From NCBI GenBank assembly GCA_016212825.1, contig JACRDS010000009.1:1-40507 (forward strand): a stretch of 40,507 nucleotides of DNA. The letters are read 5' to 3'. The stretch's first letter is position 1. Each line of letters starts with the position of its first letter. Positions 1,882 to 32,946 of this stretch are shown here, one piece after another. The notes under the pieces were generated by a model. That model searched no databases, was not told the origin of the DNA, and saw only the letters and a list, made by a program, of their open reading frames with translations. This DNA comes from Elusimicrobiota bacterium. Its GTDB lineage: Bacteria; Elusimicrobiota; Elusimicrobia; UBA1565; UBA9628. A program made the translations under genes and the position numbers.

Positions 1882-2829
1882 TCAGCGCCCCGGAGCCGGG
1901 GCGCGCTTGCGGCGCGCCGCGTGGGCGATGCCGGCGGCGTTGAGCTCCAGGTCGAGCTTGAGGAGCTCCCAGGTCTCGGGGGCGTCGAGGCCCCTCTCCC
2001 GCAGCGCCGCGCGGAAATGCTCGCGCAGGGCGGCTTCGCAGAAGGGGGTCAGCGCCGCGTCGGGCAGGCCCGAGGCCGCGGCGCTCTCCAGCAGCCGCGC
2101 TGAGAAATCCAGGTGCCCCAGCAGTTGCTCCGCGGCCGGGCGCAGGTCCGCGACCTCGCCGAAATGGCTCAGGAAGGCGCGCCGGGCTCCGGTCTTGACC
2201 AGACGTTCCACGCTGGTCCGGGCTTCTTCAGGCTCGTAGCCCGTGGGGCTGGTGGAGGGGAAGATGAAGAGCCCTCTCCCCTGGAGGGCCGGATAAGCCA
2301 GGCCGAAGGAGTCTCCCGTGAACGCCCCTTCCGAGGCCGGGTCCCAGACGCACATGTGGTGGTTGGCATGGCCCCGCGTGTGCAGGAAGGTCAGCTCCCG
2401 GCTGCCCCAGCGCAGGACCTCGCCGTCGGCCATGGCGCGCACGCGGGCCGCGGGCACCGCGCCCACGGAGCCGTAGAGCTCCTCGAAGGCCTGATCCCCG
2501 TAGACCTTGCGGGCGCCGGCCTCCAGGCGCGCGGGGTCGATGATGTGGCCCGCCGCTTTTGGGTGGGCCAGGAGCGTGGCGTTGGGGCAGGCGTCGAGCA
2601 AGGCCTGGCTGCCCGCCGCATGGTCGAGATGGGCGTGCGTCACCACCGCGTAGTCCACCTGCTCCGGGCCCAGGCCTGCGGCCTGGAGGCTCTCCAGCAG
2701 TCTCGGCAGGGCGCGCGCCGTGTTGTTGTCCACGAACAGGGCCCGGCCGCCCTCGACGAGCAGGTAGGAGGCCGCGTAGCCGGGCCGCCCCAGGTAGCGG
2801 CAGTCAATCGCGATGACCGGAGCCGGCAT
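1882..2829 (-). CDS. Metallo-beta-lactamase-fold hydrolase
   Basis: 315 residues. The metal-binding motif THAHLDH gives H65, H67, D69 and H70. Further ligands are the His in GHANHH (about H154), the Asp in FTGDSFG (D173) and a late histidine in LSHFG. This is the full dinuclear-zinc or iron set of glyoxalase II/ETHE1-like hydrolases. The C-terminal 80 residues are helical and basic at the very end. It is the last gene of the minus-strand operon, and its ATG shares one base with the stop of the adenosyltransferase gene (TGATG). A thioesterase or acyl-glutathione-like hydrolase role would suit the acyl-CoA context, but the substrate cannot be read from the sequence. Confidence 0.85.
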   Translation of the reverse strand: MPAPVIAIDCRYLGRPGYAASYLLVEGGRALFVDNNTARALPRLLESLQAAGLGPEQVDYAVVTHAHLDHAAGSQALLDACPNATLLAHPKAAGHIIDPARLEAGARKVYGDQAFEELYGSVGAVPAARVRAMADGEVLRWGSRELTFLHTRGHANHHMCVWDPASEGAFTGDSFGLAYPALQGRGLFIFPSTSPTGYEPEEARTSVERLVKTGARRAFLSHFGEVADLRPAAEQLLGHLDFSARLLESAAASGLPDAALTPFCEAALREHFRAALRERGLDAPETWELLKLDLELNAAGIAHAARRKRAPAPGR

Positions 2830-3329
2830 CAGGGCTTGCGGCGCGACTCCCGATAGGCCAGCATGAAGAACACGGTGGAGAGCCGGTTGAGGTAGGCGTA
2901 GACCGGCGGCCTGAGCTTGCCCGAGCGCAGCAGGGCCGTGCAGGCCGACTCCAGGTCCCGGCAGCGCACCCGGCATTCGTTGTAAGCCGCGGCCAGCGGA
3001 GTGTCGAAGCGCACGAACTTCTTGGGCGGCTCGCCCAAGGAATCCGCGAAGGCCTCGAGCGCGTCCACGTCCGCCCTGGTGACGGGCCAAGGCAGGCAGG
3101 CTTGTCCCGCTCCGGAGAGCTCGCCCGCCGCCTGCCAGAGCTTGCGCTGCACCTCCCTCAGGGCTGCCCAGGCCGAGCCGGCGGCGCCGAGCAGGGCCAG
3201 GTCCACGGCGCTCTGCAGCGAGTCGATCTTGCCGCCCAGCACTATGCGCGGATGGTCCTTGGCCAGCCGCCGTCCGGAGAGGTCGCTGGTGAAGCCCGCG
3301 TCGCCTTTCTTGGTGTAGACCGGCTTCAT
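2829..3329 (-). CDS. PduO-type ATP:cob(I)alamin adenosyltransferase (divergent)
   Basis: 166 residues, usual length is about 170-190. It would transfer the adenosyl group of ATP to cob(I)alamin to make coenzyme B12, which the mutases at 29590 and 35413 need. N-terminal TKKGDAGFT (residues 6-14) is the ATP-binding signature. Near the C-terminus, the CRVRCRDLE segment retains two conserved arginines and the glutamate of the catalytic helix, and YLNRLSTVFFMLAYRE matches the YLNRLSD block. Some positions diverge: the GxxDELNS block reads GGKIDSLQS, the second Arg of the RR pair is Asp, and the Asp after LNRLS is Thr. It overlaps the nitroreductase gene by 4 nt (ATGA) and MBL by 1 nt. Family call firm; full activity less certain. 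Confidence 0.82.
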   Translation of the reverse strand: MKPVYTKKGDAGFTSDLSGRRLAKDHPRIVLGGKIDSLQSAVDLALLGAAGSAWAALREVQRKLWQAAGELSGAGQACLPWPVTRADVDALEAFADSLGEPPKKFVRFDTPLAAAYNECRVRCRDLESACTALLRSGKLRPPVYAYLNRLSTVFFMLAYRESRRKP

Positions 3330-3955
3330 CGAGCGGCGGATAAGGGACCGCCGTCCCTGGAGGGTGGTCGTTCTCCGCTCCCGGAAGGGGCGGCGGGCAG
3401 GGGGAAGGGATTGCCGTGGCGGTCCAAGGACACCAGCTCGGCCAAGGGTTTGCGCTCCACCCGCCGGGGCAGGCGCGCGGGCCAGCCCACGGGGATGAGC
3501 TCCACCACGCTGCGGCCGGCCGGGACCCCCAGGATCTCTCCGGCCTTGGCGAAGTCGAAGTAGCCCGCATGCACGGTCCCCAGCCCCTCGGCGGCCGCGG
3601 CCAAAGCCAGGTGCTCGCAGGCGATGCCCAGGTCGAAGAGCATCCACGCGTCGCCCCGCGCGGTCACGGACTCGCCCTTGTACCAGCCGGAGCGGCCCGC
3701 GATGCCCACCGCGGCTACCAGCACCGGCGCCTCGGCCACGGCCTTGGTCGCGGGGTTGCCCGGCGAGAGGGTCTGCTGGAGCCGGCGCCTGAGCTCCGGG
3801 TCCTGGACCAGGATGAGCTCCCAGGGCTGGACGTTGGCCCAGGAGGGCGCGGCCCGGAAGGCTTCGAGCAGGCGCAGCAGGACCTCGGGGGCGACGGGGT
3901 CGGGCTTGAACTCCCGGATGGACTGCCGGCTGCGCACGGCCTCGTGGAATTCCAT
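3326..3955 (-). CDS. Nitroreductase-family FMN oxidoreductase
   Basis: 209 residues. SRQSIREFKPDPV near the N-terminus is the FMN-phosphate-binding SRRSIRxF motif, and PSWANVQPWELILVQ is the second flavin-binding block. The region AAAAEGLGTVHAGYF and the VVELIPVGWPA segment match the C-terminal flavin-binding half. The last 35 residues are a Pro/Ser/Arg-rich tail. Members reduce nitro groups, quinones or enones, or dehydrogenate substrates, using NAD(P)H. It starts 2 nt after the EtfA-fusion stop and overlaps the adenosyltransferase start by 4 nt, so it is co-transcribed with both. In this context it may be a flavin partner of the fusion protein, or a cobalamin or flavin reductase (inference only). 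Confidence 0.85.
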   Translation of the reverse strand: MEFHEAVRSRQSIREFKPDPVAPEVLLRLLEAFRAAPSWANVQPWELILVQDPELRRRLQQTLSPGNPATKAVAEAPVLVAAVGIAGRSGWYKGESVTARGDAWMLFDLGIACEHLALAAAAEGLGTVHAGYFDFAKAGEILGVPAGRSVVELIPVGWPARLPRRVERKPLAELVSLDRHGNPFPLPAAPSGSGERPPSRDGGPLSAAR

Positions 3956-3957: not shown

Positions 3958-6420
3958 TCAGGCCTCCAGGGAGATGTCCGAGACCCCGCCCAGGCGCTTG
4001 GCCATCTCCGTCATCTCCTTGAGCTTGGCCTCGGCGAACACGGAGAGCCGGGCCCCGTCCGGCGAGCCGCCGCCGTGCATGCAGCCCGGCACGCCCGAGC
4101 CGATGGTGAGCCACTCGATGAGGCGGGCGATGCGGGCCCGGGTCTCGGCCGGAGCGTGGGCCTTGAGGTACTTGCGGATGAGGTGCCCGTAGCGCTCGTC
4201 GAGGAAATCCTGGGCCGAGGGCATGCAGCCGGTCTCCGCGATGCCGCCGGCGATCTCCTGGGTCAGGCGCTTGGTCTCGTAGGGCAAGGTGGCCACGTGG
4301 ACCTTGTTGATGTTGGCCAGCAGGGGGTCGGGCAGCCAGGCCCCGGAGGGGTGCCTGCGCCCGAGCACGGCCGCGGCCAGGCCCACGCCGAAGGTGGTCT
4401 CGTTGTTGACCAGCATGCGCACCAGCTTGTCGCGGAACACCTTCTCCTGCAGGCCGTTGGCCCGGGCCATGAGGATGGCCGCGCCCACCATCACGTCGCC
4501 CTGCCCGGCCACGCAGCCGCCGATGGCCGAGCGGTAGGGCAAGGTGAAGCGCGTGACCGCGTCCTCGGCCGCGGCGTACTCGCCGTTGAGGAAGAGGCGC
4601 TCCTTCGGGACGAATACGTCCTGGAAGAAGAGGTAGGCCTGGGTGATGCCGCCGCGGGTCACCGGGTTGTCGAAGCCCGCCTCCTGCTCGCGGGTGTCCG
4701 AGGGCCGGCGCGCCTCCACGATGGTCAGGCCCGCCGCGTCGCGCGGGATGACGAAGCTCACCGCGTAGTCCGCCTCGGAGCGCTTCAGGCGCGTGCCCGG
4801 CATGACGAAGATCTCCTGAGCCGCGGCCACGCCGCAGATCATGACCTTGGCCCCGCGCACCACCACGCCGCCCGGGCGCCGGGCCACGATGCGCAGGTAG
4901 GAGTCCGGGTCGGCCTGGCGGGAGGGGGGGAGCTTGCGGTTCCCTTTTGGGTCGGTGAGCGCCCCGGCCACGGTGATGTCGCGCTCCTGCGCGCCGCGCA
5001 GCCAGCGGTGCAGCCGGCGGTGGTAGTCGGTGCCCTGCGCCTGGTCCACGTCCCAGGTGACGGACCACATGGCGTTGAGGGCCGCGCCGCCCACGCAGCG
5101 GCCGCCGGTGCAGGTGCCGGTCAGGTTGAAGGCCGCCCGCTTCATGCGGCTCAGGGCGAAGACGTCCTCGGGCGACTGCAGCAGGGAGAGGTAGCGCGAG
5201 ACGCGCTTGCCGCTGAGGTGCGAGGTGGTGGTGAAGAGGTCCTGATGCTGCGGGTCGCGGGCCGCCTCGAAGAGCTGGGCGTGTCCCTCCACGGTGCGCT
5301 TGGTCAGCGGGTCCTCGGTCACGTCTGCGATCAGGCGGCCGAACTTATGGATGTTGGGACGCATGCGGCGCAGGCTCTCCTTGTACGCCTCGGAGGTGCG
5401 GCTGAAACCCGCGGGCTTGATCCGGGCGGCCAGGCCCTTGCCGGTCTTGAGCCTCTGGAGCAGGGCCGTGAGCACTTCCCTGAGGTCGCCCACGATGCCG
5501 TAGTCCGCGCTCTGGAAGATGGGGGCCTTGGGGTCGCGGTTGACGGCCACGATGGTCTTGGCGCCGAGTATGCCCACGGTGTGGTGCATCATCCCGGAGA
5601 TGCCCGCCCCGATGTAGAGGCGGGGCTTGATGGAGACGCCGCTGGCGCCGATCATCTGCCGCGGCTTGGCCCAGCCTTCATCCACCGGGGGCCGGGTGGC
5701 GCCCACGGCACCGTCCAAAGCCCGGGACAGGTCCTCGAGCAGGGCCCAGTCCTTGCGCGAGCCCACGCCGTGGCCGCCCGCCACCACCACGGCCGCGCTC
5801 TTGAGAGCGGCCGGGCCGGAGCCCTCCGCCTCGGCGCGGACCGCCAGGGTCCGCACCCCGCGCAGGCCGCGCGGCAAAAAGACCTTCTCGCGCACGGCCT
5901 TGGCGCCCGGCGTCCGGCCGGGGCGCGCGCTGAAGACCCCGGCGGCTACGGTGGCCATCTGCGGCCGCTGGTCCGGGCAGACGATGTTGGCCATGATGTT
6001 TCCGCCGAAGCCGGGCACGGTCTGGATGAGGCTGGAGCCGTCGAACTTCAGGTCCACGCAATGGGCGCTGAGGCCGGTGCCCAGGCGGGCCGCCACGCGG
6101 GCGGCCCGGGAGGAGTCGGCGCGGCCCGCGCCCAGAAGCAGGACCTCGGGCTTGCGCCGGCGGGCCAGCTCGGAGAGGGCGTAGGCCTGCGTCGGCGCGC
6201 CGCCCTGGTCCAGGCGCGGGTCGTCGAGGACGTAGACCGTGGAGGGGCCGTGGTCCAGCAGGGCCCTGGCCGCCTTGCCCGCCGCCGAGCCCAGGACCAC
6301 GGCTTCCAGGACCATGCCGGCGCTCTCCGCCAGCGCCCGGCCCTTGCCCAGCAGCTCCAGACCGACCGGGTCGGGCCGGCCGTCCTCATGGGAGACGAAC
6401 ACCCAGATGGAAGGCTTCAT
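3958..6420 (-). CDS. Fusion: electron-transfer flavoprotein alpha subunit + 4-hydroxybutyryl-CoA dehydratase-like domain
   Basis: One uninterrupted 820-residue frame. Residues 1-330 are a complete EtfA: N-terminal nucleotide-binding-like domain, then the FAD domain with VVVAGGHGVG (211-220), GATRPPVDEGW (240-250), LYIGAGISG (268-276) and VNRDPKAPIFQSADYGIVGDL (293-313). Residues about 337-820 align end to end with the flavin/FeS 4-hydroxybutyryl-CoA dehydratase/vinylacetyl-CoA isomerase family (AbfD). AbfD FeS cysteines C99, C103 and C299 correspond to C437, C442 (CX4C instead of CX3C) and C636. The His ligand H292 is Y629, and catalytic T190, E257, Y296, K300 and E455 are C529, Q594, I633, V637 and G779 (alignment by eye). 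It overlaps etfB by 4 nt. It is probably an ETF-coupled flavoenzyme with a non-canonical reaction, not an ordinary dehydratase. Confidence 0.85.
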   Translation of the reverse strand: MKPSIWVFVSHEDGRPDPVGLELLGKGRALAESAGMVLEAVVLGSAAGKAARALLDHGPSTVYVLDDPRLDQGGAPTQAYALSELARRRKPEVLLLGAGRADSSRAARVAARLGTGLSAHCVDLKFDGSSLIQTVPGFGGNIMANIVCPDQRPQMATVAAGVFSARPGRTPGAKAVREKVFLPRGLRGVRTLAVRAEAEGSGPAALKSAAVVVAGGHGVGSRKDWALLEDLSRALDGAVGATRPPVDEGWAKPRQMIGASGVSIKPRLYIGAGISGMMHHTVGILGAKTIVAVNRDPKAPIFQSADYGIVGDLREVLTALLQRLKTGKGLAARIKPAGFSRTSEAYKESLRRMRPNIHKFGRLIADVTEDPLTKRTVEGHAQLFEAARDPQHQDLFTTTSHLSGKRVSRYLSLLQSPEDVFALSRMKRAAFNLTGTCTGGRCVGGAALNAMWSVTWDVDQAQGTDYHRRLHRWLRGAQERDITVAGALTDPKGNRKLPPSRQADPDSYLRIVARRPGGVVVRGAKVMICGVAAAQEIFVMPGTRLKRSEADYAVSFVIPRDAAGLTIVEARRPSDTREQEAGFDNPVTRGGITQAYLFFQDVFVPKERLFLNGEYAAAEDAVTRFTLPYRSAIGGCVAGQGDVMVGAAILMARANGLQEKVFRDKLVRMLVNNETTFGVGLAAAVLGRRHPSGAWLPDPLLANINKVHVATLPYETKRLTQEIAGGIAETGCMPSAQDFLDERYGHLIRKYLKAHAPAETRARIARLIEWLTIGSGVPGCMHGGGSPDGARLSVFAEAKLKEMTEMAKRLGGVSDISLEA

Positions 6421-7211
6421 GAGAGCACCTTGTCCTTGCGCAACCTTTCCAGCAACTGGGCCGCGGCCTCGTCAGGCGAGCCCTGCAGCATCTCTCCCCT
6501 GCGCTTGACCGGCGGGGTGAATATGTTGAGCATGCGAGTGGGCGAGCCGGCCAGGCCCACGCCGGAGGGAGCCAGCTTGAGGTCGCGGGCCGACCAGGCG
6601 GAGATCTTCTTGGACGCGGCCGCGCGGAGCGAGGCCAGCGGGGTCAGCCGCGGCGCGTTGGCCGACTGGTCCAAGGTGACCAGGGCCGGGAGCTCCGTCT
6701 CGCACACGGCCTGCCTTTCCTCGCGCAGGCAATGGGCATGCAGCTTCTTCCTCTTGATCTCGAGGGAGCGGGCGAAGGTCAGGTCCGGTATGCCGAGGAG
6801 CTCGGCCAACTGGGGGCCCACCTGGCCCGTGCTGCCGTCGGCGCTGTAGCCGCCGCAGAGGATCAGGTCGAAGCGGCCGAGCTTGCGCACGGCCGCGGCC
6901 AGCACGCGCGCCGTGGCCAAGGTGTCGGCGCCGGCGAAGGCGGGGTCCGTGAGCAGGCAGGCCCGGTCGCAGCCCAGGGCCAGGGCCTCCTGGAGCTGCT
7001 CCAAGGCGCCCGGCGCGGCCATGGCCAGCGCGCTGACGCGGCCCTTGTGACGGGCCTTGAGCGCGGCCGCGGCCTCCAGGGCGTTGCGGTCCAGGGGGTT
7101 GATGACGGAAGGCACCTCGTCGCGGCGCAGGAGCATGGTGTCCGGGTCCAGGCGCAGCTTGTCGAAGCGGGAGGGGTCGGGCACGGGCTTGACGCAGACG
7201 ATGATGTGCAT
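6417..7211 (-). CDS. etfB: Electron transfer flavoprotein beta subunit (partner of the EtfA fusion)
   Basis: 264 residues. CVKPVPDP at the N-terminus, NPLDRNALEAAAALK (about 38-52) and GGYSADGSTGQVGPQLAELLGIP are EtfB hallmarks that bind the nucleotide (AMP or a second FAD) and contact EtfA. The C-terminal segment carries the recognition-loop region and the arm that wraps EtfA. The stop overlaps the start of the EtfA fusion by 4 nt, and the acyl-CoA dehydrogenase lies 14 nt upstream. Together they should form an acyl-CoA-dehydrogenase/ETF electron-transfer unit. Whether this ETF bifurcates electrons (second FAD in EtfB) cannot be settled by eye. It differs clearly from the second EtfB at 11815. 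Confidence 0.9.
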   Translation of the reverse strand: MHIIVCVKPVPDPSRFDKLRLDPDTMLLRRDEVPSVINPLDRNALEAAAALKARHKGRVSALAMAAPGALEQLQEALALGCDRACLLTDPAFAGADTLATARVLAAAVRKLGRFDLILCGGYSADGSTGQVGPQLAELLGIPDLTFARSLEIKRKKLHAHCLREERQAVCETELPALVTLDQSANAPRLTPLASLRAAASKKISAWSARDLKLAPSGVGLAGSPTRMLNIFTPPVKRRGEMLQGSPDEAAAQLLERLRKDKVLS

Positions 7212-7225: not shown

Positions 7226-8359
7226 TCAGTTGAGCGCGGCGCGCGAGACCACGATCTTGCCCACCTCGGTGGTGCCGCCGGCCGAGATGCAGACCATGGC
7301 GTCGCGGAAGCAGCGCTGCACCGGGTAGTCCAGCATGGTGCCGCAGCCGCCGTGGATCTCCAGGGCCTTGCGGCTGGCGCGCAGGGCGGCCTCGGTGGTG
7401 TAGAGCTTGGCCATGGTCATGTGCGTGGCGCAGTCGCGGCCCCGGTCCTTGAGCCAGGAGGCGCGGTAGCAGACCAGCCGGGCCGTCTCCAGGTCGGTCA
7501 GGATGTCGGCCACGTTCCACTGGATGGCCTGCAGGGCGGCGATGGGCTTGCCGTAGAGAGTGCGGCTCTTGGAGAACTTCACGGCTTCGTCGAATGCCGC
7601 CTCCAGGATGCCCAAGGACACCGCGGCCATGCCCGGCCGGCCCACCTCGCCGATGGTCTTGAGCGCCACCTTCATGCCCTCGCCCTCGTCGGCGACCAGG
7701 GCCGATTCCGGCACGCGGCAGTTCTTGAAGAAGAACTCGCCGGTGTCCGCGCCGAGCAGGCCCATCTTGTGCTCCTCGCGGCCCAAAGAGAAGCCCTGGG
7801 CCCCTTTCTCTATGATGAAGGCGCTCAGGCCCCGCGAGCCCTCGCCGGTCTTGGCGATGATCAGGGGGGCGGCGCAGAGGTGGGCGTTGGTGATGTAGCA
7901 CTTGCTGCCGTTGAGCACGTAGCCGCCCCGGGCGCGCGCGGCCGTGCTGGCCATGCCCACGAGGTCGGACCCGCCCGTGGGCTCGGTCACCGCGCAAGTC
8001 CCCAGGAACTCGCCCCGGCACATCCGCGGCAAAAGCCGCTCCTTCTGGGCCTTGCTGCCCCAGTCGTTGACGGCCGCGGACTGCATGTGGTGCACCTGCA
8101 AAGAGATGCCCACGGCCGCCGAGACCTTGCTGACCTCGGCCACGGCCGCGGTGCGGGCCAGCCAGCCCAGCTCCGAGCCGCCGTAGCGGCGCGGCGTGAC
8201 CAGGCCCAGCAGGCCGACCTCGGCCAGCTGCTTGATGAGGGGCTTTGGGAACTTCCCGGAGCGCTCCATCTCCGGGACCAAAGGCGCCACGACTTGGCGC
8301 GCGAAGTCGCGCGCGGTGCGCTGCACGATCTTGACGGGGTTGGGGAAATCGAAGTCCAT
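7226..8359 (-). CDS. Acyl-CoA dehydrogenase-family flavoprotein lacking the usual catalytic Glu
   Basis: 377 residues, usual length. FAD and substrate-binding blocks are present: GTCAVTEPTGGSD, YVLNGSKCYITNA, KSRTLYGKPIAALQAIQ and the C-terminal KALEIHGGCGTMLDYPVQRCFRDA block. The short-chain enzyme motif YEGTSEI aligns without gaps to AGGTTEV here, placing G361 where the catalytic Glu normally sits. The alternative position on helix G, used by isovaleryl-CoA and long-chain dehydrogenases, also holds Gly (GEVGRPG). The base is therefore not at either standard site. It is the first gene of the minus-strand operon, followed after 14 nt by etfB, so it should pass electrons to the EtfB/EtfA-fusion pair. 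It may act on an unusual acyl-CoA using another acidic residue (inference). Confidence 0.88.
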   Translation of the reverse strand: MDFDFPNPVKIVQRTARDFARQVVAPLVPEMERSGKFPKPLIKQLAEVGLLGLVTPRRYGGSELGWLARTAAVAEVSKVSAAVGISLQVHHMQSAAVNDWGSKAQKERLLPRMCRGEFLGTCAVTEPTGGSDLVGMASTAARARGGYVLNGSKCYITNAHLCAAPLIIAKTGEGSRGLSAFIIEKGAQGFSLGREEHKMGLLGADTGEFFFKNCRVPESALVADEGEGMKVALKTIGEVGRPGMAAVSLGILEAAFDEAVKFSKSRTLYGKPIAALQAIQWNVADILTDLETARLVCYRASWLKDRGRDCATHMTMAKLYTTEAALRASRKALEIHGGCGTMLDYPVQRCFRDAMVCISAGGTTEVGKIVVSRAALN

Positions 8360-8364
8360 GGTGC

Positions 8365-8392
8365 TTCACTCTAATAAAATAATGGCTATAAT
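8365..8392 (+). promoter_or_regulatory. Promoter for the ptb-buk/beta-oxidation operon in a 43-bp divergent spacer
   Basis: TTCACT (8365-8370) and a perfect TATAAT (8387-8392) are spaced 16 nt apart inside an AT-rich spacer between two divergent operons. Initiation would fall near 8399, only a few nucleotides before the ATG at 8403, and no Shine-Dalgarno sequence is visible there, so the message may be nearly leaderless. The same spacer must also drive the minus-strand operon starting at 8359. Confidence 0.5.
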
Positions 8393-8402
8393 ACAAACTG
8401 CC

Positions 8403-10640
8403 ATGTTCCGCATAGAGGAGTCGTTCGTCAAGCACATCCTCTCCCTCCAGAAAGACCGCCCCACCGTCGTGTTCACCGAGCCGGACGACCCCCGCGTGCT
8501 CGAGGCCGTCTGCTATCTGGGGCGCTTCATCAAGCCGGTGCTCCTGGCCTCCGAGGAGTCCGTGCGCGCCTGGGCGGCGCAGAGCCTGTCCCACCTGGAG
8601 CCCACCCGCGTGGAGTTCGCCCTGTCGGAGTGCGCCTTCGTGGACATCCCCCGGCAGGCCGCCCTGGTCGAGGAGTTCGCGGCCGACTGCCTCAAGAACC
8701 GGCGCTGCGGCAGCGCGGCCGCGGACCTGGCGACGGCCAGGTCCGCGGTCTCGGAGCCGGGTCTCTTCGGCGTCTACGCCGCGCACCTGGGCCACGCGGA
8801 CATGGTGGTGGGCGGGGCCCGCCACGGCGCCAAGGACTTCTTCCGGCCCATGCTCGCGGTGCTCTCCAAGCGGGAGGTGGTCTGCGAGGCGGGCTTCTTC
8901 GTCCTGCCCGACGAGCACCCGGAATCGCTCTACCCCCACAACATCGTGGTCTTCGGCGACATCGGCGTCAACGCGACCATGAGCCCGCGCAAGCTGGCGG
9001 ACGTGGCCGTGGGCATCTGCGCGGTGGCGCGCGACCTCATCCCGGAGGAGGTCCTGCCCGAGATCCACGGCGCCATAGTCTCCTACTCGCACCGGGGCTC
9101 CGACGAGGGCCCCTCCCCGGACATGATCCGCCAGGCCATGGCCCTGATCCCCGGCCTGCTGGCCGAGCGCGTGCGCCTGGGCCGGCGCTACGCCGGCATC
9201 CGCATCGCGGGCGAGGTGAAGATCAGCGCGGCCGTCTCGCGGCGCTCCGCCGAGCTCTACGGCGGCGACGGCCTCGGCGGCGGAACCAACGTCATCATCT
9301 GCCCCAACCTGGAGACCGGCAACCTCCTCTACGACCTCTACTCCTCGCGCTACCCCACCGCCAAGAAGTTCCAGGTCATCTTCGGCGTGGGCTTCCGGGG
9401 CGTGGACCTGGCCATCGACTGCAGCCCGGAGGACGTGCGCCTGGCGGTCAAGGCCTCGGTGCTGCGCCTGCACCGCTACGGCCGCTGGACCCGCACCCCC
9501 CAGGACACCTTCTTCCGCCGCCACCGCGTCCTGGCCGTCAACCCGGGCTCCACCTCCACCAAGATCGCGGTCTATGAAGGAGAGGTGGAGACCTTCAGCC
9601 GCGAGCTGCAGCACACCCAGGCGGAACTGGCCCCCTTCGCCGGCCGCCGCATCGCCGAGCAGTACGCCATGCGCAAGGACTCCGTTCTGCGCGCCTTGGG
9701 CGAGGCCAAGCTCGGCCCCGGCGACATGGACGCCTTCTGCGGGCGCGGCGGACTGCTGCGCCCCATCCCGCACGGCACTTACCGGGTGGGCGAGGCCATG
9801 CTCGCCGAGCTGCGCGCGGGCCTGGGCGGGGAGCACGCCTCCAATCTGGGCGGCCTCATCGCCCACGACCTGGCCGCGCCCGCGGGCAAGCCCGCCTTCA
9901 TCGTGGACCCTGTGGTGGTCGACGAGACTCCCCCGCGGGTGAAGGTCACCGGCGTCAAGGCCATCCGCCGGCGAGTGATCAGCCACGCCCTCAACCAGAT
10001 CGCCTCGGCGCGGCGCTACGCGCAGGAGAACGAGACCTTCTACGAGCGCGTCAACGTGGTGGTCTGCCACCTGGGCGGCGGCATCTCCATCGGGGCCCAT
10101 TCCCAGGGCCGCTACATCGACGCCAACAACGGGCTCGACGGCGAGGGGCCCTTCAGCCCGGAGCGCTGCGGCTCTTTGCCCCAGGCGCAGTTCGCGGAGC
10201 TCTGCTTCTCGGGGCGCCTGACCCACGCGGAGGTCAAGAAGCTCATCAAGGGCGCGGGTGGGCTCATCGACCTGCTGGGCACCTCGGACCTGCGCGAGGT
10301 GGAGCGCCGCATCGCCGCCGGCGACGCGGAGGCCGCGGAGGTCTTCGACGCCATGGCCTACCAGATCGCCAAGGCCGCGGCCGCCTTGCTGCCGGCCTTC
10401 GACGGGCAGAAGCTCGACCGCGTCATCCTGACCGGCGGCATGGCGCGCTCCGCCATGCTGGTGGAGCGCCTCGCGGGCTACCTGGTCGGCCTGGGCTGCG
10501 GCGTCACCGTCTACCCCGGAGAGAACGAGATGGCGGCCCTGGCCAAGGGCGCCCTGCGCGTGCTCTACGGCCGGGAAGCCGCGCGCGAGTACACGTCCCC
10601 GGACCGGGCGTCGCTGGCGCCGCGGCCCGCAATCCCTTAG
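8403..10640 (+). CDS. Fused phosphate (iso)butyryltransferase - (iso)butyrate kinase
   Basis: 745 residues in one frame. Residues 1 to about 365 are a phosphate acetyl/butyryltransferase domain (acyl-CoA + Pi to acyl-phosphate): TVVFTEPDDPRVLEAV, ADMVVGGARHGAKDFFRP and the NVIICPNLETGNLLYDL block. Residues about 375-745 are a butyrate kinase (acyl-phosphate + ADP to acid + ATP): VLAVNPGSTSTK, GRGGLLRPIPHGTY, EHASNLGG, FIVDPVVVDE, HALNQIASAR, HLGGGISIGAH, NNGLDGEGPFSPER and the GENEMAALAKGALRVL end. These enzymes are normally separate adjacent genes. The start was chosen at the ATG giving FRIEESFVKHI, where the family homology begins. It leads the beta-oxidation operon, so it would harvest ATP from butyryl- or isobutyryl-CoA. 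Confidence 0.9.
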   Translation: MFRIEESFVKHILSLQKDRPTVVFTEPDDPRVLEAVCYLGRFIKPVLLASEESVRAWAAQSLSHLEPTRVEFALSECAFVDIPRQAALVEEFAADCLKNRRCGSAAADLATARSAVSEPGLFGVYAAHLGHADMVVGGARHGAKDFFRPMLAVLSKREVVCEAGFFVLPDEHPESLYPHNIVVFGDIGVNATMSPRKLADVAVGICAVARDLIPEEVLPEIHGAIVSYSHRGSDEGPSPDMIRQAMALIPGLLAERVRLGRRYAGIRIAGEVKISAAVSRRSAELYGGDGLGGGTNVIICPNLETGNLLYDLYSSRYPTAKKFQVIFGVGFRGVDLAIDCSPEDVRLAVKASVLRLHRYGRWTRTPQDTFFRRHRVLAVNPGSTSTKIAVYEGEVETFSRELQHTQAELAPFAGRRIAEQYAMRKDSVLRALGEAKLGPGDMDAFCGRGGLLRPIPHGTYRVGEAMLAELRAGLGGEHASNLGGLIAHDLAAPAGKPAFIVDPVVVDETPPRVKVTGVKAIRRRVISHALNQIASARRYAQENETFYERVNVVVCHLGGGISIGAHSQGRYIDANNGLDGEGPFSPERCGSLPQAQFAELCFSGRLTHAEVKKLIKGAGGLIDLLGTSDLREVERRIAAGDAEAAEVFDAMAYQIAKAAAALLPAFDGQKLDRVILTGGMARSAMLVERLAGYLVGLGCGVTVYPGENEMAALAKGALRVLYGREAAREYTSPDRASLAPRPAIP

Positions 10641-10663: not shown

Positions 10664-11812
10664 ATGGACTTCGAGTTCACGGAAGAGCAGCGCATGGCCA
10701 TAGACGGGGCGCGCCGCTTCGCGCAGGAGAAGCTGGCTCCGGCGGTGGCCGAGCTCGACGAGAAGGGCGAGGTCAACCTCAAGGCCCTCAAGGAGCTGGG
10801 CGGGCTGGGCTACCTGGGGATGACCGTGGCCGAGGAGGACGGCGGCTCGGCCCTGGGCGCGGTGGCCTACGCCGGCTCCATGATCGAGTTCAGCAAGGTC
10901 GACGCGGGCTGCGCGGTGGCCGTGTCCGTGCAGAACTCCTTGGTCAACGACGCGGTCGCGCACTTCGGCACCCCGGCCCAGAGGAAGAGGTTCCTGCCCA
11001 AGCTCGCCTCCGGCGAGTGGATCGGCTGCTTCTCTTTGACCGAGGCCGGCGCGGGCAGCGACCCGGCTTCCATGCGAACCACGGCCAAGCGCCAGGACGG
11101 CGGGTTCGTACTCAACGGCACCAAGAACTTCACCACCAACGGCGGCATCGCGGACGCCATCATCGTCTTCACGCGCAGCGAGGCGCCGCCCGGCGGGAAA
11201 CCAGGCATCTCGGCCTTTTTGCTCACCAAGGACGCGCCGGGCTTCAAGGTCGGCAAGCACGAGAACAAGATGGGCATCCGCACCTCGAGCACGACCGAGA
11301 TGGTCTTCGAGGACTGCCGGCTCCCGGCCGACGCCCTGCTCGGCGAGGAGGGCAAGGGCCTCAAGGTCGCTTTGGCCACTTTGGACGGCGGCCGCATCGG
11401 CATCGCCTCCCAGGCCGTGGGCATCGCGGAGGGCGCCCTGGAGGAGGCCGTGCGCTACGCCAAGGAACGGGTCCAGTTCGGCAAGCCCATCGCGGAGCTG
11501 GAGGGCCTGCAGTTCATGCTCGCGGACATGGCGACCGAGGTCGAGGTGGCCAAGACCATGCTCTTCCGCGTGGCCTGGATGAAGGACGCGGGCAAGCCGC
11601 GTTTCACCAAGGAGGCGGCCATGCTCAAGCTCTACGCCTCTGAGATGGCGCACCGGGTCTGCCACAAGGCCGTGCAGGTCCACGGCGGCTACGGCTTCAT
11701 GAAGGAGTACAAGGTGGAGCGCCTCTACCGGGACCAGCGCATCACCGAGATCTACGAGGGCACCTCCGAGATCCAGCGCTACGTCATCGCGCGCAGCATC
11801 CTGGGGGCCTAG
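10664..11812 (+). CDS. bcd: Short-chain (butyryl-type) acyl-CoA dehydrogenase
   Basis: 382 residues. All acyl-CoA dehydrogenase blocks are present: GCFSLTEAGAGSD, FVLNGTKNFTTNG, GIRTSSTTEMVFEDC, KERVQFGKPIAELEGLQFMLADM, VQVHGGYGFMKEY and IYEGTSEIQR, with catalytic Glu at E365. It oxidises (or, with reverse flux, forms) butyryl-CoA/crotonyl-CoA using FAD and hands electrons to ETF. AGGAGG lies 8-9 nt before the ATG. The gene is 23 nt after ptb-buk and 2 nt before etfB. This and the crotonase-HADH-thiolase neighbours point to C4 substrates, although exact chain length is inference. It contrasts with the 7226-8359 paralogue, which lacks the catalytic Glu. Confidence 0.92.
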   Translation: MDFEFTEEQRMAIDGARRFAQEKLAPAVAELDEKGEVNLKALKELGGLGYLGMTVAEEDGGSALGAVAYAGSMIEFSKVDAGCAVAVSVQNSLVNDAVAHFGTPAQRKRFLPKLASGEWIGCFSLTEAGAGSDPASMRTTAKRQDGGFVLNGTKNFTTNGGIADAIIVFTRSEAPPGGKPGISAFLLTKDAPGFKVGKHENKMGIRTSSTTEMVFEDCRLPADALLGEEGKGLKVALATLDGGRIGIASQAVGIAEGALEEAVRYAKERVQFGKPIAELEGLQFMLADMATEVEVAKTMLFRVAWMKDAGKPRFTKEAAMLKLYASEMAHRVCHKAVQVHGGYGFMKEYKVERLYRDQRITEIYEGTSEIQRYVIARSILGA

Positions 11813-11814
11813 CC

Positions 11815-12594
11815 ATGGACATCGCGGTCATCCTGAGGCAGGTCCCGGACACCGAGGCCGCGGTCAAGCCTGACCCGGCGCGCCCCGGCGCCATCCTGGA
11901 GGGCGAGATCAAGTTCGTGCTCAACCCGTACGACGAGTACGCGGTGGAAGAGGCCCTGCGCATCACGGAGAAGCTGGGCGGCTCGGCCGTGGGCTTCTGT
12001 GTGGGCCCGGAGCGCTCGGAGACGGCCCTGCGCACGGCGCTGGCCATGGGCCTGGAGCGCGCGGTCTGGGTCTGCGAGCCGGCCGCCTGGCAGGCGGACG
12101 TGGTCACGCAGGCCCGCGTGCTCGCCGCGGCCATCAAGAGCGGGGGCTTCGCCCCTGCCCTGATACTCTGCGGCCGGGAGTTCATCGACACGCAGGAGGA
12201 CGCCATGGCCGCGGCCGTGGCCCAGGCCCTGGACATCCCGCACGTGCTGGGTGCGGCCAAGATCGAGCTTTCCGACGGCAAGGTCGTGGTGAGCCGGGAG
12301 GTGGAGGGCGCGACATTGGAGATCGAGGCCAAATTGCCCGCGGCCGTGTCCTGCTCCAAGGGCCTCAACGAGCCCCGCTATCCGACCCTCATCGCCATCA
12401 AGCGCTCCAAGAACAAGGAGATCAAGAAGGCGGCGTTGGCCGAACTCGGGGTGGACCCCGGCCCGGCCAAGAGCAAGGTGCTGGCGCTCAAGCTGCCGCC
12501 GCCGCGCGCCAAGGGCGTGCGCGCGGAGGGGGAGCCGGCCGCGGTCGCTTCCCAAAGCCTCGAATGGCTCGCCAACACGGCGAAGGTGATATGA
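11815..12594 (+). CDS. etfB: Electron transfer flavoprotein beta subunit
   Basis: 259 residues. ILRQVPDTEA (KQVPDT motif), the FVLNPYDEYAVEEALRI block and ILCGREFIDTQEDAMAAAVAQALDIP are typical EtfB elements. The LNEPRYPTLIAIKRSKNKEI segment is the highly conserved EtfB signature, including the recognition loop that docks to the acyl-CoA dehydrogenase. The gene begins 2 nt after the dehydrogenase stop and is followed immediately by etfA, so the three genes form a stoichiometric unit. It looks like a conventional ETF rather than the unusual one encoded at 6417-7211. Confidence 0.93.
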   Translation: MDIAVILRQVPDTEAAVKPDPARPGAILEGEIKFVLNPYDEYAVEEALRITEKLGGSAVGFCVGPERSETALRTALAMGLERAVWVCEPAAWQADVVTQARVLAAAIKSGGFAPALILCGREFIDTQEDAMAAAVAQALDIPHVLGAAKIELSDGKVVVSREVEGATLEIEAKLPAAVSCSKGLNEPRYPTLIAIKRSKNKEIKKAALAELGVDPGPAKSKVLALKLPPPRAKGVRAEGEPAAVASQSLEWLANTAKVI

Positions 12595-12595
12595 C

Positions 12596-13567
12596 ATGGC
12601 AGGCATCATAGTCTGGATAGAAACGGCCAACGGCGAGGTCCGCAAGGCCAGCCGGGAGGCCGCGGCAGTCGGCCTCAAGCTCGCGGAGAAATTCCAGGTC
12701 CCTCTGGCCGCGGTGGTCTGCGGCGCGGACGCGGCCTCGGCCGCCAAGCTGGGCCGGCTGGGCTTCGCGAAGGTGTTCAGCGCGGATGGAGACGCGCTGC
12801 GCGCGTACTCCAGCGAGGCCTTTTGCGGCGCGGTGGCCGAGGCGGGCAAGCGCCTGGGCGCAGACCTCTACGTCGTGTCCGCCACGGCCCTGGGCCGGGA
12901 CCTCTCCGCCCGCTTGGCTGCCCGGCTGGGCGCGGCGCTGGCCACGGATGTGACCGAGGTCCAGTGGGACAGCCCAGCTTTGACCGTGGTCCGGCCGGTC
13001 TATTCCAGCAAGCTTCTGGCCGTGACCGAGCTCTGCGCCCCGGTCAAGGTGCTGTCCCTGCGTCCCAACGTGTTCCCGGCCGAGGCGGAACGCGAGCAGA
13101 CCGCGGAAGTGGTCGCCATCACCCCGGAGGACCTGCGCATCCGCGCCCAGGTGCTCAAGGCCATCCAGGCCGCGCAGGGCGTCATGGACGTGACCGAGGC
13201 CGAGGTCATCGTGTCCGGCGGCCGCGGCGTGGGCGGGCCGGAGGGCTTCAAGCTTATCGAGGACCTGGCCAAGACCCTGCGCGGCGCCGTGGGCGCCTCG
13301 CGCGCGGCCGTGGACGCCGGCTGGATTCCCTACAAGCATCAGGTGGGGCAGACCGGCAAGGTGGTCTCGCCCGTGCTTTACATCGCCTGCGGCATATCCG
13401 GGGCCATCCAGCACTTCGCGGGCATGGGCTCCTCCAAGTTCATCATCGCCATCAACAAGGACAAGGACGCGCCCATCATGGAGAAGGCGGATTTCGCCAT
13501 GGTCGCGGACCTCTTCAAGGTCGTGCCCATCCTCAAGGAGGAGCTGGCCAAGGCCCTTAAAAAATGA
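12596..13567 (+). CDS. etfA: Electron transfer flavoprotein alpha subunit
   Basis: 323 residues, the normal length for a stand-alone EtfA. The FAD-binding C-terminal domain shows VSGGRGVGGPEGF, GAVGASRAAVDAGW, HQVGQTGKVVSPVLYIACGISGA and IAINKDKDAPIMEKADFAMVADL. The FAD here is the site that receives electrons from the dehydrogenase and passes them on, probably to the membrane FeS protein encoded at 27689. The gene starts 1 nt after etfB and its stop overlaps the crotonase start by 4 nt (ATGA). Comparing it with the first 330 residues of the 3958-6420 protein makes the extra domain in the latter obvious. Confidence 0.94.
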   Translation: MAGIIVWIETANGEVRKASREAAAVGLKLAEKFQVPLAAVVCGADAASAAKLGRLGFAKVFSADGDALRAYSSEAFCGAVAEAGKRLGADLYVVSATALGRDLSARLAARLGAALATDVTEVQWDSPALTVVRPVYSSKLLAVTELCAPVKVLSLRPNVFPAEAEREQTAEVVAITPEDLRIRAQVLKAIQAAQGVMDVTEAEVIVSGGRGVGGPEGFKLIEDLAKTLRGAVGASRAAVDAGWIPYKHQVGQTGKVVSPVLYIACGISGAIQHFAGMGSSKFIIAINKDKDAPIMEKADFAMVADLFKVVPILKEELAKALKK

Positions 13568-14346: not shown

Positions 14347-14349
14347 GAC

Positions 14350-16984: not shown

Positions 16985-17013
16985 TTGTCCGCCCTACCAA
17001 AATGTGCTTTTAT
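16985..17013 (+). promoter_or_regulatory. Probable promoter of the pyrimidine-degradation operon
   Basis: TTGTCC (16985-16990) and TTTTAT (17008-17013) are separated by 17 nt in the 127-nt gap before the beta-ureidopropionase gene. Each box matches consensus at four of six positions. It is the only AT-richer stretch in the gap. The leader would be about 50 nt, with GAGAGGGG close to the ATG at 17071. Confidence 0.4.
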
Positions 17014-17070
17014 GAGGTCTCGCCTCCAAATGGGGAGCTAGGGGCTCAAAGACCAAGAGAGGGGTCCAAA

Positions 17071-17943
<873 letters not shown>

Positions 17944-17954
17944 GAGGCTCACAC

Positions 17955-19406: not shown

Positions 19407-19409
19407 ACC

Positions 19410-20708: not shown

Positions 20709-20717
20709 GAGGTTACC

Positions 20718-22226: not shown

Positions 22227-22233
22227 CTGCCTC

Positions 22234-22262: not shown

Positions 22263-22269
22263 ATCAGCG

Positions 22270-27688: not shown

Positions 27689-29593
27689 ATGACTTGGCAT
27701 CCGGCTGACGCAGCGGTCGTAGGCATCGCCCTCCCCATCTCCCTGGCCGTGTTCGGCCGCGCGGTCTTTAGGAAGACCAGGCTCCTCCAGGCCCTCGCCC
27801 CGCCGCCTGACCCGGCCGCCGACCATCCCCGGCGCATCCAGGAGCTCCTGACCATATTCCTGGGCCAGAAGAAGCTCTTCCAGGACTTCGTGCCCGGCTT
27901 CATGCACGCCCTCATCTTCTGGGGCTTCTGCGCCCTGCTCCTGCGCGCGCTGACCCTGTTCGGCATGGCCTTGGGCGGAGGCTTCGAGTTCCACCTCCCG
28001 TTCCTCGGCCCCGACGCCCGGCTGGGACGGGCTTACGACCTGGTCAAGGACGGCGCCAACATCGCGGTCGCGCTCATGATCCTCCTGGCCCTGTTCCGCC
28101 GCTACGTGCTGCGCGTCAAGCGCCTGCGCAACACGGGCGAGGCCCTCTTCGTCCTGCTCATGATCCTCACCCTCATGCTCAGCGACATGCTCTTCTCCGC
28201 TGCCCTGAACGTCCAGGCCCCGGCCGCGGCCGGGCACGCAGCGCTCTGGGTGCACTGCGTGGGCATACTCGTCTTCCTGGCCTACCTGCCCACGGGCAAG
28301 CACATGCACGTGCTCACCTCCGTCTTCAACGTGTACCTGCGGCCTCTGCACCGCAGCGGCAGATTGACCAAGCTCGACCTGGCCGACGAGAAAGTGGACG
28401 TGTTCGGCACGCCCCACATCGACCAGCTCACCTGGAAGGACGGCCTGGACCTCTACACCTGCACCGAGTGCGGCCGCTGCAACGAGGCCTGCCCGGCCAA
28501 CACCGTGGGCAAGAAGCTCGCCCCGCGCGAGATCATCACGGCCGAGAAGGACTGCCTCAAGCGCGAGACCGGCCGCCTCATCAACGGCAAGGACGGCGAG
28601 CCCGAGGAGTTGGTTCCCGCCTCGGTCACCCCCGAGGAGTTCTGGGCCTGCACCACCTGCCAGGCCTGCGAGCAGGCTTGTCCCGTGAGCATCTCCCACG
28701 TGCAGCGCATCAATTCCCTGCGGCGCGGCGAGGTGCTGATGCAGGCCCGCTTCCCGGCCGAGATCAAGCGCGCCTTCAAGGGACTGGAGACCAACTCCAA
28801 CCCCTGGGGCATCGGCGCGGCCAAGCGCGCGGAGTGGGCCAAGGACCTGAATCTGCCGCTGTTCCGGCAGGTTCCCGCGGAGTATCTGCTCTATTTCGGC
28901 TGCGCGTCCAGCCTCGACGACCGGGCCGTCAAGGTCAGCCGCAGCTTGGTCGCTCTTCTGAGGAAAGCCGGCGTGTCCTTCGCCGTGCTCGGCCAGGAGG
29001 AGCTCTGCTGCGGCGAGACCGCGCGCCGTCTCGGCGAGGAGGCTTTGGGCCAGTCCTTGGTGGAGCAGAACGTGGCTTTGCTCAACGGGCTCAAGGTCAG
29101 GAAGATCCTCACTCCCTGCCCGCACTGCTTCAACACCTTCAAGAACGAATACCCCGACTTCGGCGGGAGCTTCGAGGTCGTCCACCACACCCAACTGCTG
29201 CAGGACCTGGTCCGGCAGGGACGGCTCAAGCCCAAGGCGGGGGCCGATACGCGCGTCGCCATCCACGATTCCTGCTATCTGGGCCGCGCCAACGGCGTCT
29301 ACGAGCCGGCCCGCGAGCTTCTGGCAGCCGTGGGCGGCGTGCAGACCGTGGAGCCGGAGCGCAACCGCGAGGCCGGCTTCTGCTGCGGCGCGGGCGGGGG
29401 GCTGTTCTGGGTCGAAGAGAAGGGCCCGCGCGTCAACCACGAGCGGGTGCGCCAGTTCCATTCCACCAAGCCCGACCTCATCGCCACCTCCTGCCCCTAT
29501 TGCCTGAGCATGCTCGACACCGGGGTCAAGGACCAGAAGCTGGAGAACCTCTCGGTCAAAGACCTGGCCGAGATCCTGGAGCCCGCATCATGA
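27689..29593 (+). CDS. Membrane FeS oxidoreductase, ETF:menaquinone oxidoreductase type
   Basis: 634 residues. The N-terminal 240 residues form a NarI-like membrane domain with about five hydrophobic helices and histidines suited to heme ligation ([28 protein letters not shown]). Next comes a soluble ferredoxin domain with [12 protein letters not shown] and [12 protein letters not shown]. Then two CCG domains of the heterodisulfide-reductase kind follow, with [44 protein letters not shown] and SCPYCLSM. This architecture matches the FeS oxidoreductases that carry electrons from ETF to menaquinone in anaerobic fatty-acid oxidisers. It heads the operon and overlaps icmF by 4 nt. It is the likely exit for electrons from the two ETFs; the partner assignment is inference. 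Confidence 0.85.
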
Positions 29594-32500
29594 GCCCGAA
29601 GACCGCGGCCGCGCCGCGCCCCGAGGCCGAGCCCATCAGCACCAAGCGGCGCGTGCGCGTGGTGACCGCCACCGCGCTCTTCGACGGGCACGACGCGGCC
29701 ATCAACATCATGCGCCGCATACTCCAGGCCACCGGGGCGGAGGTCATCCATCTCGGCCACAACCGCTCCGCGCGCGAGGTGGCCGACTGCGCCGTCCAGG
29801 AGGACGCGGCGGCCGTGGCCGTGACCTCCTACCAGGGCGGCCACATGGAGTTCTTCAAGTACCTCGTGGACCTGCTCGAGGAGCGGGGCTGCGGCCACAT
29901 CAAGGTCTTCGGCGGCGGCGGCGGGGTCATCCTGCCCAGGGAGATGAAGGCCCTGCATGCCTACGGCGTGGCCCGAATCTACTCCCCGGACGACGGCCGG
30001 GCCATGGGACTGCAGGGCATGATCAACGACCTGCTCAAGGCGAGCGATACGCCGGCCCGCAGGGACAAGGCGATCCCCCTTGAGCGCATCGCCAAGCGCG
30101 ACCCCGCGGTATTGGCCCGGCTCATCTCGGCGGTCGAGGACGGCCGGGCCCCGGCCCTGGCGCCCCGCGCCAAGCCCGCCCCGGTGCTGGGCGTAACCGG
30201 AACCGGAGGCTCGGGCAAGTCCTCCCTCATCGACGAGCTTCTGCGCCGCTTCCTGGCCGACTTCCCGGAGCGCACCGTGGCCATCGTCTCCGTGGACCCC
30301 ACCAAGCGCAAGACCGGCGGGGCCCTGCTGGGCGACCGCATCCGCATGAACGCCATAGACTCGCCCCGCGTATACATGCGCTCCATGGCCACGCGGGACC
30401 AGTCCTCGGGCCTGCCCGCCTGCATCGACGGGGTGCTGGCGGTGCTGCAGGCGGCCGGCTTCGACCTCATCGTGCTGGAGACCCCGGGCATCGGGCAGTC
30501 CGACACCGCGGTGGTGGACCACAGCGACGTCTCCCTCTACGTCATGACCCCGGAGTTCGGCGCCCCTACCCAGCTCGAGAAGATCGGCATGATCGACTAC
30601 GCCGACTTCGTGGCCATCAACAAGTCCGACAAGCGCGGCGCCGACGACGCCCTGCGCGACGTCAAGAAGCAGTGGGCCTACAGCCGCCGCAAGGGATCCG
30701 GCGCGGCGGCCGAGGCCCCGGTCTTCTGCACGCGGGCCTCTCAGTTCGCGGACCACGGCGTGGACCAGCTCTACCGGTCTTTGCTGGCGCGGCTGGCCGA
30801 GAAGGGCGGCTGGGGGCTCGAGGCCACCGGGGCCTCCACGGAGGAGGCCAAAGACCACGTACCCATCATTCCCACCGGGCGCGCGCGCTACCTGGCGGAG
30901 ATCAGCCAGGCCGTGCGGGACTACAACGCCTGGGCGCAAGGCCAGGCTGACGCGGCCCAAAAGGCGCAGTCTCTGCGCCAGGCGGCGGAGTCTCTGCCCG
31001 AAGACGAGCGCGTCGAAGCGGCGGCCCGGTCCGCGGAAGAAGCCGTGGAGCCCGCCAACCGCAAGGCCCTGGAGGATTGGAGGAAGAAGGCCGCATGCTA
31101 CCGGGGCGAGGAGTTCGTCTTCGAGGTCCGCGGCAAGCCCGTGCGGGTCAAGACCGGGGAAGCCACCTTGTCGGGCCTGCGCATCCCCAAGATCGCCCTG
31201 CCGCGCTTCTCGGGCCGCGGCGACCTGCTGCGCTGGCTGCTCCGGGAGAACCTGCCCGGCGAGTTCCCCTACGCGGCCGGGGTCTTCCCGTTCAAGCGCG
31301 AAGGCGAGGAGCCCACGCGCATGTTCGCGGGCGAGGGCGGCCCCGAGCGCACCAACCGCCGCTTCCACTACCTGTCCCGGGGCATGCCGGCCAAGCGCCT
31401 CTCCACGGCCTTCGACGCCGTGACCCTCTACGGCTCCGACCCGGACGCCCGGCCCGACATCTACGGCAAGATCGGAAATTCCGGGGTGTCGGTGGCCTGC
31501 CTCGACGACGCCAAGCGCCTCTACTCCGGCTTCGACCTGGCCGACCCGCGTACCTCGGTCTCCATGACCATCAACGGCCCGGCCCCGGTCATGACCGCCT
31601 ACTTCATGAACGCGGCCGTGGACCAGCAGTGCGAGCTGCTCCTGCGGCGCGACGGCAAGGAGCGCCAGACCCGGGCCCAGATCGCCGCCTTCTATCGCAA
31701 GCGCGGCCTCAAGGTCCCCGTCTACCAGGGGTCCTTGCCCGAAGGCCATAACGGCCTGGGACTGCTGCTGCTGGGCATGACCGGAGACCTTGTCCTGCCC
31801 GCCGAGGTCTACGCGCGCATCAAGGCCGACACCTTGGGCAAGGTGCGCGGCACGGTGCAGGCCGACATCCTCAAGGAGGACCAGGCCCAGAACACCTGCA
31901 TCTACGCCATCGACTTCGCGCTCAAGCTCATGGGCGACGTGCAGGACTACTTCATCCGCAGCGAGGTGCGCAACTTCTACTCCGTGTCCATCTCCGGCTA
32001 CCACATCGCCGAGGCCGGGGCCAATCCCATCACCCAACTGGCCTTCACCTTGGCCAACGGCTTCACCTACGTGGAGCACTACCTCTCGCGGGGCATGCCC
32101 ATAGACCGCTTCGCTCCCAACCTCTCCTTCTTCTTCTCCAGCGGTATGGACCCGGAGTATTCGGTCATCGGCCGCGTGGCGCGCCTCATCTGGGCCAAGG
32201 CCATGAAGCGGCGCTACGGCGCCAACGGCCAGTCCCAGCGCCTGAAGTACCACTGCCAGACCTCGGGCCGGTCTTTGCACAGCCAGGACATCGAGTTCAA
32301 CGACATCCGCACCACTTTGCAGGCCCTGAGCGCCGTCTACGACAACTGCAACTCCCTGCACACCAACGCCTACGACGAGGCCATCACCACCCCGACCGAG
32401 GAGTCGGTGCGCCGCGCCGTGGCCATCCAGCTCATCATCAACCGCGAGCACGGCCTCAACCGCAACCAGAACCCCCTGCAGGGCTCCTTCATCATCGAGG

Positions 32501-32946
32501 AGCTCACCGACCTCGTCGAGGAGGCGGTGCTCTGCGAGTTCGAGCGCATCAGCGAACGCGGCGGGGTGCTGGGCGCCATGGAGACGGCCTACCAGCGGGG
32601 CAGGATCCAGGAGGAGTCCCTGCGCTATGAGTCCTTGAAGCACAGCGGGCAGCTCCCCATCATGGGCGTCAACACATTCCTTTCTCCCCACGGTTCGCCC
32701 ACCGCCCGGCCCAAGGAGGTCACCCGGGCCGCGCCGGCGGAGATGCGCAGGCAGATAGAGACCTTGCGCGCCCTGCACAAGGCGGCGGCGGACCGCGCCC
32801 CGGCTTTGCTGGCCGAGCTGCGCCGCTGCGCCTTGGGAGAGGAGAACGTGTTCGCCGCGCTCATGGAAGCGGCCAAGGCCTGCTCCTTGGGCCAGATCAC
32901 TGGGACGCTCTTCGAGGCCGGGGGGCAGTACCGCCGCAGCCTGTGA
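29590..32946 (+). CDS. icmF: IcmF: fused isobutyryl-CoA mutase (B12 domain, G-protein chaperone, mutase)
   Basis: 1118 residues. It interconverts isobutyryl-CoA and n-butyryl-CoA with adenosylcobalamin. Residues about 20-150 are the B12-binding domain with FDGHDAAIN (D32, H34). Residues about 195-460 are a MeaI-type GTPase with P-loop GTGGSGKS (204-211). A helical linker precedes the mutase TIM barrel at about 560-1118. Substrate residues decide the call: F579 (MFAGEGG) aligns with methylmalonyl-CoA mutase Y89, and Q767 (AQNTCI) with R207, the Phe/Gln pair of isobutyryl-CoA mutases. The start ATG overlaps the previous stop by 4 nt; the open frame upstream is only the shadow of that gene. Neighbouring butyryl-CoA genes fit its product. 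Confidence 0.94.

Follow-up and report, generated by a model that had tools for sequence, protein, structure and literature searches.

The question raised by this locus is what a protein does that resembles 4-hydroxybutyryl-CoA dehydratase (AbfD) across a whole domain but carries, at its N-terminus, a subunit of an electron transfer flavoprotein (ETF). The gene lies at positions 3958-6420 on the minus strand of the window, by which we mean the entire 40,507-nucleotide stretch analysed, from an Elusimicrobiota metagenome-assembled genome (MAG) of 3.56 Mb, and it encodes the 820-residue protein P0001. Residues 1-325 (5446..6420, -) match PF01012 and PF00766, identifying an ETF alpha subunit (EtfA) domain with a GISGMMHH variant of the FAD site; phmmer searches matched this part to CarE (4e-61) and Acidaminococcus fermentans EtfA (2e-57), so that its nearest solved relatives are bifurcating types, electron bifurcation to ferredoxin remaining putative. 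Residues 340-820 (3961..5403, -) exceed the Pfam gathering scores of the HpaB/AbfD superfamily (PF11794, 252.5 bits; PF03241, 145 bits) and matched AbfD of Clostridium aminobutyricum (1U8V, 1e-96) and the Nitrosopumilus maritimus dehydratase (6VJR, 4e-91), with 39.9% and 37.2% identity, respectively; the two dehydratases are 59.5% identical to one another. An earlier, sequence-only reading had described a dehydratase-like domain at 3958-5115, which covers only part of the AbfD-like domain and leaves out the EtfA portion that makes up the first 325 residues of the gene product. We ruled out a chimera or assembly artefact, because the fusion recurs in seven genomes that span five genera and three families (7 of 340 genomes searched), with all seven Elusimicrobiota carriers having the two parts fused.

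An AlphaFold model of the AbfD-like domain, made with 70 family sequences (pLDDT 91.6, pTM 0.90), predicts the AbfD fold over the whole domain, the best solved match being 1U8V (Foldseek E 1.2e-42, TM 0.95) and the next 6VJR. VIA-align against 1U8V gave Z 50.1 and an rmsd of 1.6 Å over 473 residues (range for 1U8V and 6VJR, Z 50-51 and 1.6-1.9 Å), and no family closer than AbfD appeared among those listed. The fused protein was modelled as two confident domains joined by a short, weak linker near residues 328-331, with an uncertain mutual orientation (pTM 0.61).

We mapped the active-site residues by HMMER and MAFFT alignment to 1U8V, comparing both solved dehydratases, and took family counts from 80 aligned members, the best 80 of 122 relatives found in a scan of genome contigs. 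We take C99, C103 and C299 of AbfD to be its cluster cysteines and H292 the fourth cluster ligand, and E257, Y296, K300 and E455 (and T190) to be its catalytic positions. All three cluster cysteines are kept in 80/80 aligned members, as C437 (5110..5112), C442 (5095..5097) and C636 (4513..4515; these and the following residue coordinates are on the minus strand), the first pair being CX4C rather than CX3C through one inserted residue. The His ligand is replaced by Y629 (4534..4536), while E257, Y296 and K300 have become Q594 (4639..4641), I633 (4522..4524) and V637 (4510..4512), each again in 80/80; T190 corresponds to C529 (4834..4836). The swaps run mostly toward apolar residues. Every one of these assignments, including the altered cysteine spacing, had been proposed in the sequence-only reading and was reproduced here; no His or Glu returned at H292, E257 or E455 in any of the aligned family members. 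Its placement of E455 at G779 was mistaken, as E455 falls in a four-residue deletion (AVGYRTESMHG to VPG----CMHG), next to which C780 (4081..4083) pairs with S456 of AbfD. C529 and C780, which had been singled out as two added cysteines, are indeed present, but a third, C732 (4225..4227), had been overlooked; it is invariant (80/80) and lies in the context AETGCMPS, within a two-residue insertion that follows a conserved GG motif.

The accompanying suggestion that the cluster has been re-ligated through C529 and C780 finds no support in that form. C529 is Cys in 72 and Ala in 8 of the 80 aligned members, and C780 is Cys in 77 and Thr in 2 (one sequence being truncated), is Phe in the divergent copy L142, and sits in a loop (777-780) with pLDDT below 50. 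Because neither is strictly conserved, both make poor candidates for the cluster's fourth ligand; Y629 or C732 may fill this role, or the site may be open.

The relatives (best 80 of 122) come from archaea and bacteria alike, among them Thermoplasmatota, Zixibacteria, Bacteroidales, Baldrarchaeota, Synergistaceae, Bacillota, Syntrophaceae and others. Among 282 columns identical in AbfD and the N. maritimus enzyme, 80 are kept in this family and 38 have been swapped to another fixed state; the 80 kept include all three cluster cysteines, and the 38 swapped include five of the six catalytic positions (hypergeometric P = 1.9e-4). Sixty-five positions are both invariant in the family and common to the two dehydratases, and dN/dS of the AbfD-like domain is 0.22-0.34. 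A maximum-likelihood tree placed the family apart from AbfD and other paralogs (100/100 on both sides of the split), with characterized AbfD outside it and the fused Elusimicrobiota proteins forming a single clade (100/100). True AbfD orthologs of the same superfamily keep H292, E257, Y296, K300 and E455, which family members lack, and a Syntrophaceae genome (G353) encodes a true AbfD whose catalytic residues are all in place, beside a family member and several other variants. This genome (L136, L137, L138) has six AbfD-family proteins above the Pfam cut-off, with graded active-site changes, one of which has CX4C and a Gln at the His-ligand position. By these alignments the swapped residues are a family trait and not decay. 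The earlier view of a different chemistry as opposed to a degenerate pseudoenzyme is borne out by the fixation of these residues throughout the family, by purifying selection and by the conservation of the operon.

That operon has the same order in all seven Elusimicrobiota carriers: an acyl-CoA dehydrogenase (ACD), EtfB, the EtfA::AbfD-like fusion and a nitroreductase-family protein. In the window these partners are at 7226..8359, 6417..7211 (EtfB, directly upstream of the fusion gene) and 3326..3955 (the nitroreductase-family protein, directly downstream), all on the minus strand, and the window and its closest relative also have in common a PduO-type cobalamin adenosyltransferase (2829..3329, -) and a metallo-beta-lactamase-fold protein. 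The dehydrogenase-like partner is not a canonical acyl-CoA dehydrogenase at either Glu site: its catalytic Glu is missing (YEGT to SAGGT), and all seven Elusimicrobiota copies have SAGGT, a VGR-type sequence and no Glu at the helix-G site of the isovaleryl-CoA dehydrogenase type. Long-chain and isovaleryl-CoA dehydrogenases use another Glu instead of that of YEGT, and it is this alternative Glu that the Elusimicrobiota partners lack as well. Long-chain and isovaleryl-CoA dehydrogenases themselves have Gly or Ala at the YEGT Glu site (PMC11659651). A search of 334 genomes (E <= 1e-100) found the base-less dehydrogenase in exactly the same seven that carry the fusion gene. The partner dehydrogenases of L059, L060, L073, L084, L085 and L089-L094 likewise have Gly in place of the Glu, and YEGT is kept in those of the archaeal operons and L087; base-less dehydrogenases pair with a GISGxxHH EtfA, and YEGT dehydrogenases with a QIQH EtfA.

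Outside Elusimicrobiota, the AbfD-like domain is encoded as a separate gene. An ACD, EtfB or EtfA gene lies at most 6 kb (<=6 kb) from it in 19 of 39 fully flanked loci; since the other 20 of 39, mostly from Zixibacteria and one Synergistaceae genome, have no ETF gene nearby, ETF is not established as a universal partner. In archaea the operons have a different EtfA together with the canonical YEGT dehydrogenase and an MbcS-like ligase (MbcS acts on isobutyrate and 2-methylbutyrate), and in archaea a gene for DUF6125, a cysteine-rich protein with no described function found in the literature searched, abuts or overlaps the AbfD-like gene (L021, L030, L035, L043 and others). In bacteria, a PaaK-type ligase gene often abuts it, and at L087 it is flanked by genes for a CoA-transferase and an MFS transporter. 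At one archaeal locus (L043:691-9452) the DUF6125 and AbfD-like genes immediately follow HdrABC and [NiFe]-hydrogenase-type genes. The operons of L057, L060 and L073 include a PurT-like transporter (7TAK, E 6e-87); we considered deducing a substrate from the transporters (PurT-like, MFS, CitMHS), which proved too varied among the loci for any conclusion.

A second link leads to B12-dependent carbon-skeleton chemistry. The window encodes, outside the operon of the fusion gene, the fused isobutyryl-CoA mutase/GTPase IcmF (29590..32946, +; 1671.5 bits against a cut-off of 1500), with Phe and Gln at the diagnostic positions; we take Phe and Gln, in place of the Tyr and Arg of methylmalonyl-CoA mutase, to be the signature of isobutyryl-CoA mutase, and the mutases encoded divergently from the archaeal operons have the same pair. 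Thirteen of 334 Elusimicrobiota genomes have an IcmF scoring above the cut-off, and six of the seven carriers are among these 13 (Fisher P = 6e-9, kinship ignored). Counting the Phe/Gln signature or IcmF, an isobutyryl-CoA mutase is present in 7/7 Elusimicrobiota carriers, that of G183 being judged on Gln alone with its other diagnostic position outside the alignment, and a Phe/Gln mutase is present in 18 of the 25 other carrier genomes tested (again ignoring kinship). A few of the carriers tested, from Baldrarchaeota, Bacteroidales and Synergistaceae, had no isobutyryl-CoA mutase.

Several other genes of the window deserve mention. Divergent from the operon, a phosphotransacylase is fused to an acetate/butyrate-kinase-like domain (about 8360-10640, +); it is followed at 10664-16943 (+) by another acyl-CoA dehydrogenase, a canonical one (YEGT), together with an EtfBA of its own, a crotonase, a 3-hydroxyacyl-CoA dehydrogenase and a thiolase-like protein. 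A reductive pyrimidine degradation set (dihydropyrimidine dehydrogenase-like pair, amidohydrolase, aminotransferase and aldehyde dehydrogenase) occupies 17002-27527, and an EtfD/EMO-like protein with CCG cysteine-rich and 4Fe-4S domains, likely an ETF:quinone oxidoreductase, is encoded at 27689-29593 (+).

The three cysteines are kept but the residues the enzyme needed are consistently swapped, and therefore the domain probably has a different, redox job. The reading we favor, to which we give about an even chance, is that the AbfD-like domain serves C4 or branched acyl-CoA metabolism as a redox protein with FAD and a [4Fe-4S] cluster, coupled to ETF, and is no longer a dehydratase. We prefer it because of the retained fold, the fixed swaps, the monophyly of the family, the EtfA fusion, the ETF, ACD and ligase neighbors, the restriction of the base-less ACD to the seven genomes with the fusion (of 334 searched), the co-occurrence of isobutyryl-CoA mutase and the MbcS-like ligase; from these we infer cofactor binding, ETF as the redox partner and the type of substrate. 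The domain would be a neofunctionalized AbfD-fold flavoprotein, probably still with FAD and a [4Fe-4S] cluster, and would serve the anaerobic turnover of short, branched acyl-CoAs of C4 type (the isobutyryl-CoA/butyryl-CoA pool). An acyl-CoA ligase would activate an acid, the B12-dependent isobutyryl-CoA mutase would interconvert carbon skeletons, and electrons would pass between the acyl-CoA dehydrogenase-like protein, EtfAB and the FAD/[4Fe-4S] domain, a hand-over that the gene fusion may hard-wire between EtfA and the AbfD-like domain in Elusimicrobiota. More tentatively, we speculate that there is an undescribed redox system, common to archaea and bacteria and wrongly annotated as the marker of the 4-hydroxybutyrate CO2-fixation cycles, in which an AbfD-fold FAD/[4Fe-4S] protein with a re-ligated or open cluster site works with ETF and the base-less ACD on isobutyryl- or butyryl-type CoA esters, possibly by bifurcation or confurcation.

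The ligases that abut the AbfD-like gene, and the CoA-transferase and MFS transporter beside it at L087, would also suit an acyl-CoA lyase or isomerase that retains AbfD-like ketyl-radical chemistry on another substrate, with Y629, Q594 and C529 as acid/base residues and the ETF and dehydrogenase acting before or after it; the several, differently altered AbfD paralogs of the Syntrophaceae genome fit it as well. We regard this as a doubtful but serious contender: the polar acid/base positions now all hold Q, Y, I or V or are deleted, and the pocket seems apolar, C529 is not strictly conserved, and a redox-neutral lyase would gain nothing from fusion to EtfA. That same fusion, the loss of acid/base residues and the DUF6125-domain gene pair behind HdrABC and [NiFe]-hydrogenase-type genes are instead what a pure electron conduit would predict, an ETF oxidoreductase that has no substrate itself and passes ETF electrons via FAD/[4Fe-4S] to ferredoxin, Hdr or hydrogenase. 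We consider this unlikely, as the genome of the window also has the EtfD/EMO-like ETF:quinone oxidoreductase, the adjoining ligases favor a substrate, and the whole AbfD scaffold is strongly constrained, seemingly beyond a conduit's needs. That other residues have taken over and the protein is still a genuine 4-hydroxybutyryl-CoA dehydratase is very improbable despite the fold, the 37-40% identity and the three Cys ligands, given that H292, E257, Y296, K300 and E455 are missing from all relatives and that the window holds neither another HpaB/AbfD-family protein nor adjacent 4-hydroxybutyrate genes. Least credible of all is a structural or regulatory remnant without catalytic activity, which would account for the loss of the parent's catalytic residues but not for new residues invariant across archaea and bacteria, the low dN/dS or the conserved operon.

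The ETF-coupled redox reading, if true, would bring a new step, or a new route for electrons, into the anaerobic metabolism of branched-chain fatty acids. It also bears on annotation. To detect the hydroxypropionate/hydroxybutyrate and dicarboxylate/hydroxybutyrate cycles of CO2 fixation, AbfD is used as the key marker; this family scores as AbfD by Pfam and by identity, yet lacks every tested catalytic side chain, and in many carrier genomes the family member is the only HpaB_N protein found, making it easily misread as evidence of CO2 fixation. A 'candidate 4-hydroxybutyryl-CoA dehydratase' of the MAG SG8-52-3 was used in support of a proposed cycle in Thermoprofundales (PMC6461988). In the copy of SG8-52-3 that we searched, the sole HpaB_N protein, L028, belongs to this family and lacks every catalytic residue tested; the published marker is most likely a family member too, and we infer that it is the same gene.

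Among known systems, the gene sets of syntrophic isobutyrate oxidation, a process relying on isobutyryl-CoA mutase together with cob(I)alamin adenosyltransferase and MeaB, share with ours the logic of mutase, adenosyltransferase, ETF and acyl-CoA dehydrogenase, although the passages that describe them (PMC5017805) mention no AbfD-like protein. With the HpaB-type two-component flavin monooxygenases (2YYJ and relatives) the domain shares the Pfam HpaB_N/HpaB matches and the fold (Z 39), but it scores far below the NCBIfam cut-offs (113.5 against 480.2 bits for the equivalog of 4-hydroxyphenylacetate 3-monooxygenase, HpaB), and the FeS cysteines are a feature of the AbfD branch. Residues 1-325 resemble EtfA of the ACD/ETF complexes (CarE, 6FAH; A. 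fermentans, 4KPU; AcrA-type; E to 4e-61) and differ from it in the C-terminal AbfD-like fusion and in HH for QH at the GISG motif. With AbfD itself (1U8V, 6VJR) the domain has in common the full-domain fold, the three cluster cysteines and the 65 shared invariant positions, whereas it departs from AbfD in having CX4C for CX3C, in the replacement or deletion of the His ligand, E257, Y296, K300, T190 and E455, and in the extra invariant C732 and the linkage to ETF that mark the family, extended in Elusimicrobiota to fusion with EtfA.
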